Part shown: one piece after another, positions 2,965-35,780 of the stretch
Layout: every line of letters begins with the position of its first letter
How positions within the stretch are numbered: the stretch's first letter is position 1
Origin: Alphaproteobacteria bacterium
GTDB taxonomy: Bacteria; Pseudomonadota; Alphaproteobacteria; Micropepsales; Micropepsaceae
Assembly (NCBI GenBank): GCA_947474645.1
Contig: CANJJD010000025.1
Span: 1-37,375, forward strand
Direction: 5' to 3'
Length of the DNA stretch: 37,375 nucleotides
The notes under the pieces: generated by a model
Seen by the model: the letters and a program-made list of their open reading frames with translations, nothing else
Databases searched by the model: none
Told to the model about the DNA's origin: nothing
Translations under genes and position numbers: made by a program

Positions 2965-3552
2965 TTAGCGGAAGTCCGGCCCCACCGCCCAGATTACCAG
3001 CGAACGGCGGATCCCCGATTCAATCGGCGTGACCTGGTGCAGCATGTTGGCGGGGAAGGCGACCAGGGTGCCGCGCTCCCGTGGCGCGGTGTCGATCAGG
3101 TTTCCGCCGCGCACCTGCAGGTCGCAGCCCTTGTAATCGGCGCTGTCGCTGAGCTGCAGGCTCAAGGTCAGCTTGCGCGGCTCCTGCGACGGGTCATGCG
3201 GATCGCGGCCATAGTCCTTGTGCCATTCGAAGTGCCCGCCTTCGGGCCCGCCATACAGCGCATATTGCATTGCCGCCAACGCCGACAGGTCGAATCGGAA
3301 GTAGCGGGCGTTCAATTCCAGCACCGCCTGTTCCACTTTGGCATAGACGTTTTCGGTGTCGGGACCGCGCGGCACCCAGGCAACCTTGGTGCTGCGGATA
3401 TTCTCATAGCCCCGGCCGTTCGACAGTTCGGCTTTCTCCAGCGCCAGGCTGTCGCCCAGCCGCACCAAAGCGTCCAGTTCGGCCGTGCTGAACAGGCCGC
3501 GCCAGACGGCCAGCGCGCCGGATAAGGCCAATGATCCCCCCAATGCAAGCAT
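2965..3552 (-). CDS. 2-oxoglutarate/Fe(II)-dependent hydroxylase (PKHD/prolyl 4-hydroxylase type)
   Basis: This 195-residue protein has the double-stranded beta-helix layout of 2OG-Fe(II) oxygenases. Iron ligands are visible as H111-K-D113 (in HFEWHKDYG) and distal H172 (in MLHQVTPI). R182 or R183 (GIRRSLVIW) is placed to bind the 2-oxoglutarate carboxylate. The stretches RKLTLSLQLSDSADYKGCDL and GTLVAFPANMLHQVTPI are typical of the PKHD/P4H branch. The family hydroxylates protein or peptide side chains; the substrate here cannot be told. Start ATG 3552 gives a short hydrophobic N-terminus (MLALGGSLALSGAL), which could suggest a slightly later true start, though none is obvious. Confidence 0.85.
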   Translation of the reverse strand: MLALGGSLALSGALAVWRGLFSTAELDALVRLGDSLALEKAELSNGRGYENIRSTKVAWVPRGPDTENVYAKVEQAVLELNARYFRFDLSALAAMQYALYGGPEGGHFEWHKDYGRDPHDPSQEPRKLTLSLQLSDSADYKGCDLQVRGGNLIDTAPRERGTLVAFPANMLHQVTPIESGIRRSLVIWAVGPDFR

Positions 3553-24792: not shown

Positions 24793-25044
24793 ATGCAAGT
24801 CAGCGCCACTCTTATTGCCGCCCAGCAGGCCGCCCGCGAGGCGCGCGCCCGGCTGCAGGTGCCCCAACAAGGCATTGAGGCGCCGCAAGCGGGCTTCGCC
24901 GCAGCGTTGGAAAAGACCGCTGGTGTTGTGCAGAGCTTCGCGGCCTTGCCGTTGAAGCAGACCGCCGCACCGCAAACGGCACAAGCGCCGGCGCAAGTAC
25001 AGCCGTCCGGCCGGTTGGGTCAGCACATCGACATCACAGTGTGA
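24793..25044 (+). CDS. Small protein of unknown function
   Basis: This 83-residue protein is rich in Ala and Gln (MQVSATLIAAQQAAREARAR, later LPLKQTAAPQTAQAPAQVQP) and ends SGRLGQHIDITV. The first half is probably helical and the second flexible. No signal peptide or membrane segment. I do not recognise a family. The start is chosen by the AGGG at good distance. Its stop codon overlaps the first bases of the 60-bp structured repeat (25041-25100). Upstream, GTAA-N7-CTAA (24755-24769) loosely resembles a CtrA half-site pair. Confidence 0.5.
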   Translation: MQVSATLIAAQQAAREARARLQVPQQGIEAPQAGFAAALEKTAGVVQSFAALPLKQTAAPQTAQAPAQVQPSGRLGQHIDITV

Positions 25045-25100
25045 GGAACGGCGCGCGTAGCGCGTGAGCAGGTCCGGTGGACCTGCGAAAGCGACGAACG
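25041..25100 (+). repeat. Copy 1 of a 60-bp two-hairpin dispersed repeat
   Basis: This copy is 54/60 identical to the reverse complement of 32334-32393. Hairpin 1 is CGCGC-gta-GCGCG (positions 12-24 of the repeat) and hairpin 2 is CAGGTCC-ggt-GGACCTG (29-45), followed by the invariant tail CGAAAGCGACGAACG. The six differences from copy 2 are one compensating base pair in stem 1 (positions 13 and 23), two bases in loop 1, one in loop 2, and position 8. It begins at the stop of the small gene at 24793 and lies between convergent genes. Confidence 0.85.
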
Positions 25101-25141
25101 CGCCGAGCTTGGGCGAGGCGCAGGGGCCGCTTAAGACGTTC

Positions 25142-25657
25142 TTAGCCGCCGATCTTGCGCCGACGCACATTGCGGCGGACGGGGCGGGAGCCATCGCCAT
25201 TGAGCAGCTCGGCAGCCTGGGCGATCTGGGACAGGGCCTTGACGAATTTCTGGCGTTCCGGCTGGGGCAGGGCCTCCAAAAAGGCCCGTTCGGCGCGGTC
25301 GGCGGCATTGCGGGCGCCGCGCAGGGCCTTGCGGCCGGAGGGGCTGATGGCCACGGCATTGGCGCGCTGGTCTTCCTCGGTGCGCTCGCGCGACAAGAGG
25401 CCCTTTTCCAGCATACGGCGCACCATCTCCGCCAGGGTCGAGCGGTCGATGCCGGTGATCTCCACCAACGCGGTCTGGCTCACGCCGTCATTCTGTTCCA
25501 GCGCGCAGAGCAGGGTGAATTGCTGCTTGGTCAGTTCCTTGGCGCCGGCTTCACGCGCGTAGAGGTCGCCGTAGAATTGCTGGCAGCGACGGATCAGGTG
25601 AGAGGGCGCTTCGGAAAGGTCGAAACCATTTCCCGTTCTGCGCTGCCCCTTCATCAT
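25142..25657 (-). CDS. MarR-family transcriptional regulator
   Basis: This 171-residue winged-helix regulator has the MarR layout. An N-terminal dimerisation helix (SHLIRRCQQFYGDLY) is followed by LTKQQFTLLCALEQNDGVSQ and the recognition region TALVEITGIDRSTLAEMVRR. The wing (GLLSRERTEEDQRANAVAIS) comes next, then C-terminal helices and a basic tail (RPVRRNVRRRKIGG). MarR proteins usually repress nearby genes and release DNA on binding small aromatics or oxidants; the ligand is unknown. ATG 25657 is preferred over a TTG at 25660 and has AGGGG upstream. A palindrome at 25775-25793 is a candidate operator. Confidence 0.88.
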   Translation of the reverse strand: MMKGQRRTGNGFDLSEAPSHLIRRCQQFYGDLYAREAGAKELTKQQFTLLCALEQNDGVSQTALVEITGIDRSTLAEMVRRMLEKGLLSRERTEEDQRANAVAISPSGRKALRGARNAADRAERAFLEALPQPERQKFVKALSQIAQAAELLNGDGSRPVRRNVRRRKIGG

Positions 25658-25971
25658 CAAAGACCCCTAATCTGTTCCACCGGTGCGCTGCCATCATCAT
25701 GTCCCGTATTCGGGTTACGGATGCGGCGCTGCGGTCCGGAAGGCGAGTTAAAACGGTTTTGCGCGCCGATGTCCATGCGCAAATTTTGCGTATGTCATCT
25801 TGCAAACTGCGCGCGTTGTGATCCGCCCCGTGCCCTGTACGTATTGGACGGTTCATCCGCGTGGAATGGGTCGCCAGGGGCACAATGAATGGTATGCCGC
25901 CCTCTGTGCGGGCCATACATCATCTCTCAATGTTTCTAAGAAGATAGTCCTGCGTTCATCAACGGGGCGCA
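25658..25971. other. Intergenic region between yciB and the MarR gene
   Basis: About 314 bases without a convincing gene. Both flanking genes are on the minus strand, so this holds the MarR promoter region and the 3' end of the yciB transcript. Codon-like patterns are weak, and a plus-strand frame that crosses it runs into yciB. The only clear structure is the palindrome at 25775-25793. Confidence 0.5.
25775..25793. promoter_or_regulatory. Candidate MarR-type operator
   Basis: ATGCGCAAATTTTGCGTAT is an imperfect palindrome with 9-base arms around a central T; the arms agree at 8 of 9 positions. Size and A/T-rich centre suit a MarR dimer, and it lies about 117 bases upstream of the MarR start, so autoregulation is possible. 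This is inference from position and symmetry. Confidence 0.4.
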
Positions 25972-32232: not shown

Positions 32233-32333
32233 GGCGGAACTTTCGGATGGGGAACTTCTGACCCCACCCTAAAGCCCGAAGGCCGTTCCGTAAACGGAGG
32301 ATTCCGCAGAGCTGCCTTGGCGTTAAGCTGGGG

Positions 32334-32393
32334 CGTTCGTCGCTTTCGCAGGTCCCCCGGACCTGCTCACCCGCTGGGCGGGCCGCTCCTCAC
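32334..32393 (-). repeat. Copy 2 of the 60-bp two-hairpin dispersed repeat (inverted)
   Basis: Read on the minus strand, this copy has stem 1 CCCGC-cca-GCGGG and stem 2 CAGGTCC-ggg-GGACCTG, then CGAAAGCGACGAACG. It lies 21 bases beyond the stop of the SMP-30 gene at 32414 and upstream of the 43-residue protein gene. As in copy 1, it starts close downstream of a gene end. Confidence 0.85.
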
Positions 32394-32413: not shown

Positions 32414-33553
32414 CTAGGCTGGCGCTGCACCTTGGATGCCCAACCGGACCAGATAGACCGACTGGGAGGCGCACATCCACAGCCAGTCGCGCTTGGGCCC
32501 GCAGAAAGTCACGTTGGCGCAGGTCTCCGGCAGGCGGATGCGGCCGATCAGCTTGCCGGCCGGGTTCCACACCGTGACGCCCATATAGCCCAGTCTGGAG
32601 GTCGAGCCCGACCAGACATTGCCCGCCACGTCCACCCGGTGGCCGTCCGGGCCGCAATGCACCCCATCCACGTCGCAGTCGGTGAAGCGGCGCTGGTTGG
32701 CGATCTTGTTGCCCACCACATCGGCCACGTCGATGCCGGTGCCCCAGGCGAAATAGACCTTGGAATAATCCGGCGAGAAGGCGATGCCGTTGGCCACCAG
32801 GCCCAGCTTGCCTTCCACGATCACGTCCAGCCGCCCGCTGGGGTCCCAGCGATAGATGCTGGGCGGGCGCACCTGCTTCTGCGAGCCGATAATGCCGGCG
32901 CTGCCATTGCCGATATTGGGGTTGGCCAGGCCCTTGGGGTTGAAGACGGCAACGCCGGGATCGGGATGGCCCTCGGCCAATTGCGCGCCGTAATAGGGAT
33001 CGGTGAACCAGATGCTGCCGTCCTTGTGCGGGGCCATGTCGTTGGGCGAGTTCAGCGGCTGGCCGTTGTAATTGTCGGCCAGCACGGTCATGGAGCCGTC
33101 ATGCTCCCAGCGCACGATGCGGCGCAGGTAATGTTGCGCCGTGATCTGGCGGCCCTGGAAATCAAACGTGTTGCCGTTGGAGTTGAAAGACTGGCGGCGG
33201 TATTCGGTGACCTCGCCGGTTTCCCAGATGTAGCGATACTGGATGTCCTTCGACACGTCGGAGAACACCACATACTGGCCCTGGCCGCTCCAGGCCGGGC
33301 CTTCCGCCCATTCAAAGCCGGTCTTGATGCGCTTGATCGAGCTGTGGCCGATGAAACAATCATTGGCGGCCGGATCCAGGATCAGGATGTCGGGATCGGG
33401 ATAGGTGTTGGGCGGCGCATCGGGCCCCCAGGTGCGGCCAGTGAGGACGGAGTCCGTGGGCCCGAACAGCGGCTTGTTCTGTGCGGCGGCCAGCGTCGGC
33501 ACGGCGGTGGCGGCAGCGGCCAGCATGCCGCGGCGCGTCAGATTGAATGTCAT
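32414..33553 (-). CDS. Secreted SMP-30/gluconolactonase-like protein (paralogue 1)
   Basis: This 379-residue protein has a Tat-like signal (NLTRRGMLAAAATAVPTLAAA) and a six-bladed SMP-30/gluconolactonase propeller. Likely metal or active-site positions are E84 (WAEGPAWS), N171 (LNSPNDMAPHKDGS), N255 (VANGIAFSPDY) and an Asp in GPDGHRVDVAGNVW. Members hydrolyse sugar lactones using a divalent metal. The substrate here is unknown; export suggests periplasmic sugar or aldonate metabolism. ATG 33553 gives the Tat signal; a longer frame upstream does not. A closely similar gene lies just upstream on the same strand (33659-34792), a clear tandem duplication. Confidence 0.88.
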   Translation of the reverse strand: MTFNLTRRGMLAAAATAVPTLAAAQNKPLFGPTDSVLTGRTWGPDAPPNTYPDPDILILDPAANDCFIGHSSIKRIKTGFEWAEGPAWSGQGQYVVFSDVSKDIQYRYIWETGEVTEYRRQSFNSNGNTFDFQGRQITAQHYLRRIVRWEHDGSMTVLADNYNGQPLNSPNDMAPHKDGSIWFTDPYYGAQLAEGHPDPGVAVFNPKGLANPNIGNGSAGIIGSQKQVRPPSIYRWDPSGRLDVIVEGKLGLVANGIAFSPDYSKVYFAWGTGIDVADVVGNKIANQRRFTDCDVDGVHCGPDGHRVDVAGNVWSGSTSRLGYMGVTVWNPAGKLIGRIRLPETCANVTFCGPKRDWLWMCASQSVYLVRLGIQGAAPA

Positions 33554-33628
33554 GAGAATCCTCCCAACCTTGTTGTTCTGGCAGGAAGGGGAACCCGGCC
33601 TATCGGTACTGTCAATGCCGCTCAATCC

Positions 33629-35688: not shown

Positions 35689-35766
35689 CCGGGAAAGCCC
35701 AGCTTTTCCGGTCCCCCGCCTGGCGCGGGGGATCGACCCCGAGCAGCGCAGGTGCGCCCCTCGGGG
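35689..35766 (+). other. Three consecutive hairpins in the ffh leader
   Basis: Three stems stand one after another. The first is CCGGGAAAGC/GCTTTTCCGG (35689-35711, one G-T pair, loop CCA). The second is CCCCCGC/GCGGGGG (35713-35731). The third is CCCCGAG/CTCGGGG (35737-35766, 16-base loop). The last ends 14 bases before the ffh GTG at 35781. They lie in the gap between the divergent GAF-DHp and ffh genes and could be a structured leader or a small RNA. Confidence 0.45.
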
Positions 35767-35780
35767 CATAACTGCTTGGA

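Follow-up and report, generated by a model that had tools for sequence, protein, structure and literature searches.

The spread of REP-like repeats, and their position at gene ends, is an old question. In alphaproteobacteria, RIME is a palindromic repeat of about 100 bp. The Rickettsia palindromic elements (RPEs) and Bru-RS1/2 are alphaproteobacterial palindromic repeats, also of about 100 bp (PMC2229807, PMC2267715), and CIR repeats are intergenic, about 110 bp long, and have a two-armed fold with a conserved GANTC (PMC2229807). CGTC REPs are small palindromic repeats, mostly of alphaproteobacteria, that are often found after genes and apparently have no dedicated transposase (Di Nocera et al. 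2013, PMC3733652).

Here we describe a family of folded elements of about 85 nt, found in a Micropepsaceae genome of 2.64 Mb in 54 contigs (GCA_947474645.1). The stretch analysed, hereafter the window, comprises 37,375 nucleotides of contig CANJJD010000025.1. We consider it probable (about 0.7) that this family is a new non-autonomous, REP-like miniature mobile DNA element. The window holds two copies in opposite orientations (Table 1). A preliminary description, made from the sequence alone, had presented positions 25041-25100 and the reverse complement of 32334-32393 as a 60-base structured repeat with 54 of 60 bases identical, and that count is correct. The differences lie at positions 8, 13, 17, 18, 23 and 38, and five were located accurately: positions 13 and 23 are a compensating pair in stem 1 (G-C versus C-G), 17 and 18 are in loop 1, and 38 is in loop 2. 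The sixth, at position 8, falls in an outer helix (P1) that had been missed, where the bases form an A.C mismatch in copy 1 and pair as G-C in copy 2. The unchanged 15 bases described as a tail are mostly the paired 3' strand of P1, not a free tail. The 60 bases are the start of the element, which runs on to about 25124 in copy 1 and to 32311 in copy 2. Both copies had been said to begin just after a gene end. Copy 2 starts 20 bases after a TAG stop codon. Copy 1 overlaps its gene, with element bases 2-4 forming the TGA stop. Elsewhere in the window, an Rfam match to the ffh sRNA is found at 35722-35774 (47.7 bits).

Table 1. Features of the two copies of the element and adjacent genes in the window.
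Feature	Position	Strand	Remarks
Copy 1, whole element (P1-P2-P3-P1'-P4)	25041..25124	+	R2 79.4 bits (L010 1501-1584); R1 E 1.3e-21
Copy 1, P1 5' strand GTGAGGAAC	25041..25049	+	Tandem G.A at positions 3-4 and 6-7; A.C mismatch at position 8
Copy 1, P2 hairpin, loop GTA	25051..25065	+	
Copy 1, P3 hairpin GAGCAGGTCC-GGT-GGACCTGCGA	25066..25088	+	
Copy 1, P1 3' strand GCGACGAAC	25091..25099	+	Part of the 'tail' of the preliminary description
Copy 1, P4 hairpin GCGCC-GA-GC-TTGG-GC-GA-GGCGC	25100..25121	+	
TGA within copy 1, stop of 83-aa ORF 24793-25044	25042..25044	+	ORF C-terminus conserved in relatives
Copy 2, whole element, P4 degenerate	32311..32393	-	R2 55.3 bits (L012 1480-1562); R1 E 3.2e-21
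SMP-30/gluconolactonase-like gene upstream of copy 2, TAG stop at 32414	32414..33625	-	Pfam PF08450
MarR-family gene converging on copy 1	25142..25660	-	

Fold and distribution of the element

A pattern search allowing up to three mismatches found eight copies in the genome, and none with a reversed control pattern. A covariance model was built from these eight copies (R1), and a full-length model from 32 sequences (R2). The element is a three-way junction (P1, P2 and P3) followed by a hairpin (P4), and in the aligned copies conservation extends about 25 bases beyond the end of the original 60. The consensus reads GTGAGGAGC, a G, P2, P3 (core GGTCC-AGT-GGACC), two bases, GCGACGAAC and P4 (GCCGC-GA-GC-TTGG-GC-GA-GCGGC). 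P1, in which GTGAGGAGC pairs with GCGACGAAC, is a helix with tandem G.A pairs. In 172 of 195 distinct copies, positions 3-4 form tandem GA/GA with their partners. At positions 6-7, 73 of the 195 copies have GA/GA, 70 have two Watson-Crick pairs (CC/GG in 26, GC/GC in 20, AC/GT in 10, and others) and 52 have something else. The P2 triloop is of the GNA type, reminiscent of stable DNA mini-hairpins, in 69 of 131 cases.

In the R2 set (n = 32), 19 of 34 pairs were changed on both sides, compared with a mean of 12.1 after shuffling, and the covariation score was 0.310 (0.102 shuffled, at most 0.063 when slid). There were 37 further pair types, a number that 71 of 500 shuffles reached. In an independent set of 34 copies from loci used in neither model, aligned by fitting to the model and hence biased towards the structure, 23 of 34 pairs were double-changed (shuffled mean 14.0). 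Its score was 0.341 (0.105 shuffled, at most 0.058 slid), and no shuffle matched any measure. A G+C-rich genome might be expected to yield chance palindromes or artefacts of composition. This explanation is refuted by the covariation and its slid controls, by E-values down to 1e-21 and by the eight pattern matches versus none for the reversed control.

P1 was also seen as a free hairpin, for example GTGAGGAGC-GCAA-GCGACGAAC, without P2 and P3. This pattern was present in 7 of 329 loci (L179 at 3186-3207, L282, L284, L090, L162, L182 and L228), although the L162 match may be an ordinary element with a short interior. In Rhizobium, the free P1 hairpin is followed by a second hairpin with tandem G.A pairs, beside repeats that we take to be RIME-like. 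Two rearranged elements were also found. In one (L311, from genome G427 at the site homologous to locus L015 of the window's genome), an additional hairpin is inserted into the P3 loop, and the P2 and P3 stems differ from those of the copy in the window's genome. In the other (L286), the element of R. johnstonii 3841 has lost part of its interior, and that of strain TP60 at the same place is full-length.

R1 found 26 copies in the genome (genome-wide E≤0.01), and R2 supported a 27th (L035) and added a 28th (L206), giving a total of 28. One locus, L032, scored 41.5 bits by R1 yet was absent among the R2 matches. Within the genus, 31 of 69 genomes matched the pattern with at most one mismatch, and the number of matches per genome ranged from a single one in a few genomes to 54 (G438). 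Among 61 relatives, R1 detected the element in 17 of 37 genus genomes and in 0 of 24 others. The element occurs sparsely elsewhere in Alphaproteobacteria. Across the class, R2 found it in at least 7 of 386 genomes, four of them outside the genus, and this is a lower bound because at most 11 candidates per genome were scored. The class-wide pattern search also gave 7 of 386, two of which had no R2 support; G060 and G281, with a pattern match and no R2 match, were rejected as carriers.

A scan of a genome collection (84,980 species) gave at least 112 matching stretches, 80 of them listed with names. Among the matches listed were Neorhizobium, Rhizobium, Mesorhizobium, Nitratireductor, Stappia, Devosia, Parvibaculum, Celeribacter, Defluviimonas, Minwuia and many further alphaproteobacteria. 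R2 matched 108 of these 112 stretches (78 of 80 and 30 of 32), with L148 and L172 among those that had no R2 match. Pattern matches in Oscillibacter and Sphingomonas (L108 and L109) were dropped, as R2 found nothing there. Of 106 copies with genome labels assigned by hand, 32 had their closest relative within their own genome, where 11.7 were expected and the maximum in 2000 shuffles was 26, which points to amplification. In the openly licensed papers searched, of which part of the matches were inspected, we found no description of the element. The covariance-model search that the preliminary description had proposed thus revealed many further copies near gene ends and much more covariation, and the suggested likeness to REPs was borne out for the position and dispersal of copies.

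Position at gene ends and the level of selection

The element is often located exactly at the end of a gene and itself supplies the stop codon of that gene. By a strict frame test, its TGA was the stop of the upstream gene in 66 of the 188 copies with sufficient upstream sequence, and a stop fell within -2 to +4 in 80 of 188 (14 beyond the 66 at the TGA). A sense ORF ran into the element in 95 of 188 copies, 15 of which read on, and the other 93 had none. Control GGGTGAG words outside elements ended a coding ORF in 11 of 225 cases (Fisher 1e-15 for the comparison with the element copies). Codon-based ORF calling found a coding sense ORF with its stop within -400 to +12 for 155 of 188 copies, 68 of them at the element's TGA. 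These counts may be slightly low, since the caller chose a more distant stop for copy 1 of the window. The upstream coding frame was sense in 100 of the 188 copies and antisense in 18, with none called in 70. Among 69 copies docked at a stop, the base immediately preceding the element was G or A in 97%, and the one before it was G in 93%.

Gene tables agreed with docking at gene ends at two independent Rhizobiaceae loci, and a third annotated Rhizobium copy sits between diverging genes. In Rhizobium, the element is also found between the genes for a sugar ABC binding protein and its permease. In three Rhizobiaceae loci, and by flank sequence in a fourth (L121), the element has been kept at the end of a gene that, judging from its C-terminus, we presume to be ferredoxin-NADP reductase-like.

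These positions raise the main rival to a mobile repeat, namely a family of cis-acting structures at mRNA 3' ends that protect the upstream message or lower readthrough and are kept by selection at each site. The REP between malE and malF of E. coli is a precedent for mRNA structure of this sort after a stop codon. We regard this explanation as possible, if at somewhat less than even odds. The sense orientation at gene ends speaks for it, as do the Rhizobium position between binding-protein and permease genes and the retention at a Rhizobiaceae gene end, where a P1 change is compensated (GGCGC/GCGCC in L095 versus GACGC/GCGTC in L119). Folding of sense-strand RNA adds to this: both copies tested (L020 and L119) gave exactly the structure derived from covariation. 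However, antisense RNA of L119 folded nearly equally well. DNA folding recovered most of the fold for L119 but not for L020. Copy 1 of the window took a different fold when folded alone, presumably because the 5' arm of its P2 can also pair with the first bases of P4.

Counts of G-U and A-C mispairs also bear on whether selection acts on RNA. Frequent GT pairing in CGTC REPs has been cited as a sign of transcription (PMC3733652). Unlike CGTC REPs so described, the element has no excess of G-U at ordinary pairs: at 24 such pairs in 195 copies, G-U occurred 43 times and A-C 34 times (p 0.36). At 143 terminator-like hairpins from the same loci, some of them counted more than once, there were 21 G-U and 5 A-C (p 0.0025), and the contrast between the two sets gave a Fisher p of 0.034. 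Over all 34 pairs of the element, G-U exceeded A-C (105 versus 75), owing to the junction pair P2.1 (46 versus 22). The counts at ordinary pairs, which weigh against an mRNA structure, do not favour selection at the RNA level, and are as expected from decay after insertion or from selection at the DNA level; both conclusions are weak, because the copies are related.

Empty sites, flanking repeats and phage contigs

Comparison of homologous sites shows that the element is or was mobile: sites that are filled in one genome are empty or hold a reversed element in relatives. The site of copy 1, compared by eye, is empty in G427 and G444, with 13 and 7 bases between the matched flanks. In G018, G445 and G438 it holds a reversed element at the end of the MarR gene (degenerate in G018), and in G445 the TGA of this element is the MarR stop (ATC GGT GGG TGA). 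In G436 and G016, CGTC-like palindromes take the place of the element. The copy-1 site is a hot spot for unrelated repeats.

The copy-2 site is empty in G018, G427 and G001. At this site the gene ends GGC TAA in G445 and GGG TGA in G444, the TGA being that of the element, and G448 has a degenerate element farther downstream. The L015 site is empty in G448, G438, G016 and G001, where TGG CTC GGC TGA or a close variant directly precedes the next gene; the window's genome has TGG CTG GGG TGA, again with the TGA of the element. On Rhizobium plasmids, the empty site of R. etli IE4803 reads GGC TGA GG-CTTGC, and R. lentis has GGG TGA GG...element...CTTGC. The same site is filled in R. sp. Pop5, R. 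beringeri TP37, R. johnstonii TP60 and R. leguminosarum 9B. Empty homologous sites and patchy presence (31 of 69 genus genomes) argue against an mRNA structure kept by selection, and so does a C.A mismatch near the P3 tip in 4 of the 5 filled plasmid copies aligned. CGTC-like REP dimers (TGTCATGGCCCGC...), identified by eye, were seen in the gap homologous to the copy-1 site in four relatives (L253, L258, L265 and L272).

We then compared the 120 bases to the left of each copy with the 220 bases to its right, for 183 copies. Direct repeats with a score of at least 22, whose left member ended no more than 8 bases from the element, flanked 16 of 183 copies, compared with 3 of 549 control positions within these loci. 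For 13 of the 16, the left repeat stopped precisely at base 1 of the element. The right repeat ended 47-170 bases past the element. At scores of 14-16 there was no overall excess (54 versus 59.3 expected, and 33 versus 29.3 expected). Tandem arrays contain several of the 16 (L080 twice, L089 and L125), and one is inside another repeat (L064). The repeat flanking L185 is the start of a gene that we take to be NAD-synthetase-like. At L192 it is a tRNA-Gly sequence, with the intact copy after the element and agreement at 25 of 27 aligned columns. An RNA role by itself would not explain flanking repeats or insertions in tRNA genes. At locus L080 (398-952), two damaged tandem copies come after an intact tRNA-Met, and each of the two has an antisense element in its variable region.

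At one locus of the window's genome (L018, G000:C8), the start of a gene (MSRAFVKETAESAPPPERMVDE, 22 residues) is encoded both before and after the element. The two copies differ at 16 of 68 bases and every change is synonymous, so a simple, recent duplication of the target does not account for them. The left copy resembles G036 (64 of 68) and G445 (62 of 68) more than the right copy does, which scores 52 in each case. This truncated left copy was the closer one for 25 of 26 relatives listed, and in G036 an element is found shortly upstream of the same gene. Such a pattern would be expected if the element were a recombination-junction signal at which foreign homologous DNA is joined to base 1 (one-ended capture), the apparent duplications being hybrid junctions. 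The 13 left repeats that end exactly at base 1 fit this explanation too. However, L018 is the single case traced in relatives, and other cases, such as the tRNA-Gly repeat at L192, resemble plain duplications; we consider a junction signal unlikely.

Four IMG/VR contigs matched both the first pattern and R2. In L331 and L333 the element begins right at the stop of a terminase large-subunit gene, and in L330 the element is at the stop of an ORF matching a PHROG of the C-terminal part of the terminase large subunit. L330 and L331 have element and flank in common, and the same docking sequence precedes the element in L332. Downstream, L330, L331 and L332 all have a P22-like portal gene. Between L331, L332 and L333, the P2 and P3 stems at the terminase site differ yet remain paired, which again speaks for an mRNA structure. 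These stem changes and the retention at a Rhizobiaceae gene end could mean that some elements have a selected function in place. No match was found in INPHARED phages. A search of terminase relatives gave 80 loci, 46 of which were run with R2; among these 46, only L435 (the contig of L331) has the element. Two further viral-contig patterns gave 101 new stretches; 84 were run with R2 and 11 matched at E≤0.001, several of them weakly.

A mobile repeat fits these data best, with a selected mRNA 3' structure as its main rival, and the two are compatible. Mobility draws on the empty and reversed sites, the scattered copies, the conserved fold, the constant 5' end, the strong bias in orientation and stop codons, and the long flanking repeats of a minority. 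Against it stand the 93 of 188 copies without a sense ORF and flanking repeats in just 16 of 183, and the copies entering these statistics are not independent.

Possible mechanism and relation to known repeats

How might a mobile element of this kind insert? We suggest that a trans-acting factor recognizes the sense strand in its folded form, most probably as single-stranded DNA, and joins the first base of the element (GTGAG...) to a target following GG. The preferred target would be a gene ending GGn-TGA or GGn-TAA. The TGA of the element would replace the stop, so that the gene stays intact. Joining would sometimes leave a target duplication of about 50-170 bases. Once inserted, the element would form the start of the 3' untranslated region of the gene where it may incidentally serve as an mRNA 3' structure, and phages could carry it from cell to cell. 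The search for a mobilizing gene, which covered Y1 transposases, found none. More tentatively, and with some doubt, we propose a class of mobile element that targets stop codons and substitutes its own, travels as a single folded strand (of DNA, or of RNA via reverse transcription like a bacterial SINE), can leave flanking duplications of 50-170 bases, uses no known transposase and is spread by phages. If true, recognition of stop-codon contexts by a mover would represent a new principle of targeting, and such a mover might serve as a tool for inserting DNA downstream of genes. The answer to the old question is unusually legible in this family, with its constant 5' end, matched empty sites, stop codon in the first four bases and some long flanking repeats. 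It also offers a convenient way to test whether folds at gene ends are selected as RNA or are merely tolerated insertions.

A REP moved by a RAYT (Y1/TnpA-REP) transposase would likewise be a small folded extragenic repeat near gene ends, and GTAG REPs also supply stop codons (PMC3733652). The preliminary description had suggested looking for such a transposase. None was present in the source genome, which has no PF01797 match, and there was no association with the element within the genus (Y1_Tnp in 5 of 17 genomes with the element versus 7 of 20 without; Fisher p 1.0). The element also lacks the GTAG tag. A RAYT-driven REP is thus largely refuted for this genome, and we rate it as very improbable.

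The element works like a REP but is not a member of the REP families tested. It is not a known Rfam family: in Rfam 15 there was no match at the gathering score over the window elements or the 12 loci scanned, and weak sub-threshold matches were seen for three copies. Inspection of the listed copies showed no T run directly after P3 or P4, as an intrinsic terminator would have; a separate terminator-like hairpin comes after L028. MITE-type terminal inverted repeats are absent, as the partner of the element's 5' end is an internal strand that lies about 24 nt short of the 3' end. MITEs would also have target-site duplications of a constant short length; here, 16 of 183 copies have flanking repeats, with the right copy ending 47-170 nt after the element.

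By description, the element resembles Bru-RS and RIME as a palindromic repeat of alphaproteobacteria. RPEs are known for an in-frame position inside genes, whereas the element mostly ends genes. CIR repeats are intergenic alphaproteobacterial folded repeats of similar size, but any GANTC was found in just 4 of 195 element copies. CGTC REPs and the element are both small palindromic repeats, mostly of alphaproteobacteria and often after genes, and apparently neither has a dedicated transposase (PMC3733652). Of the features that define CGTC REPs, the CGTC/TGTC terminus, the 8-9 bp stem beginning AT, the loop of 4-5 and the CCA tail are all absent from the element sequences. Furthermore, CGTC REPs are a single stem, and the element, at about 85 nt, is a three-way junction plus a hairpin, with tandem G.A pairs. 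GTAG REPs are like the element in being extragenic and folded and in often giving the upstream gene its stop (PMC3733652). The element has no unpaired terminal GTAG motif, starting instead with GTGAG paired in P1, and the stop that it supplies is TGA where that of GTAG REPs is TAG.
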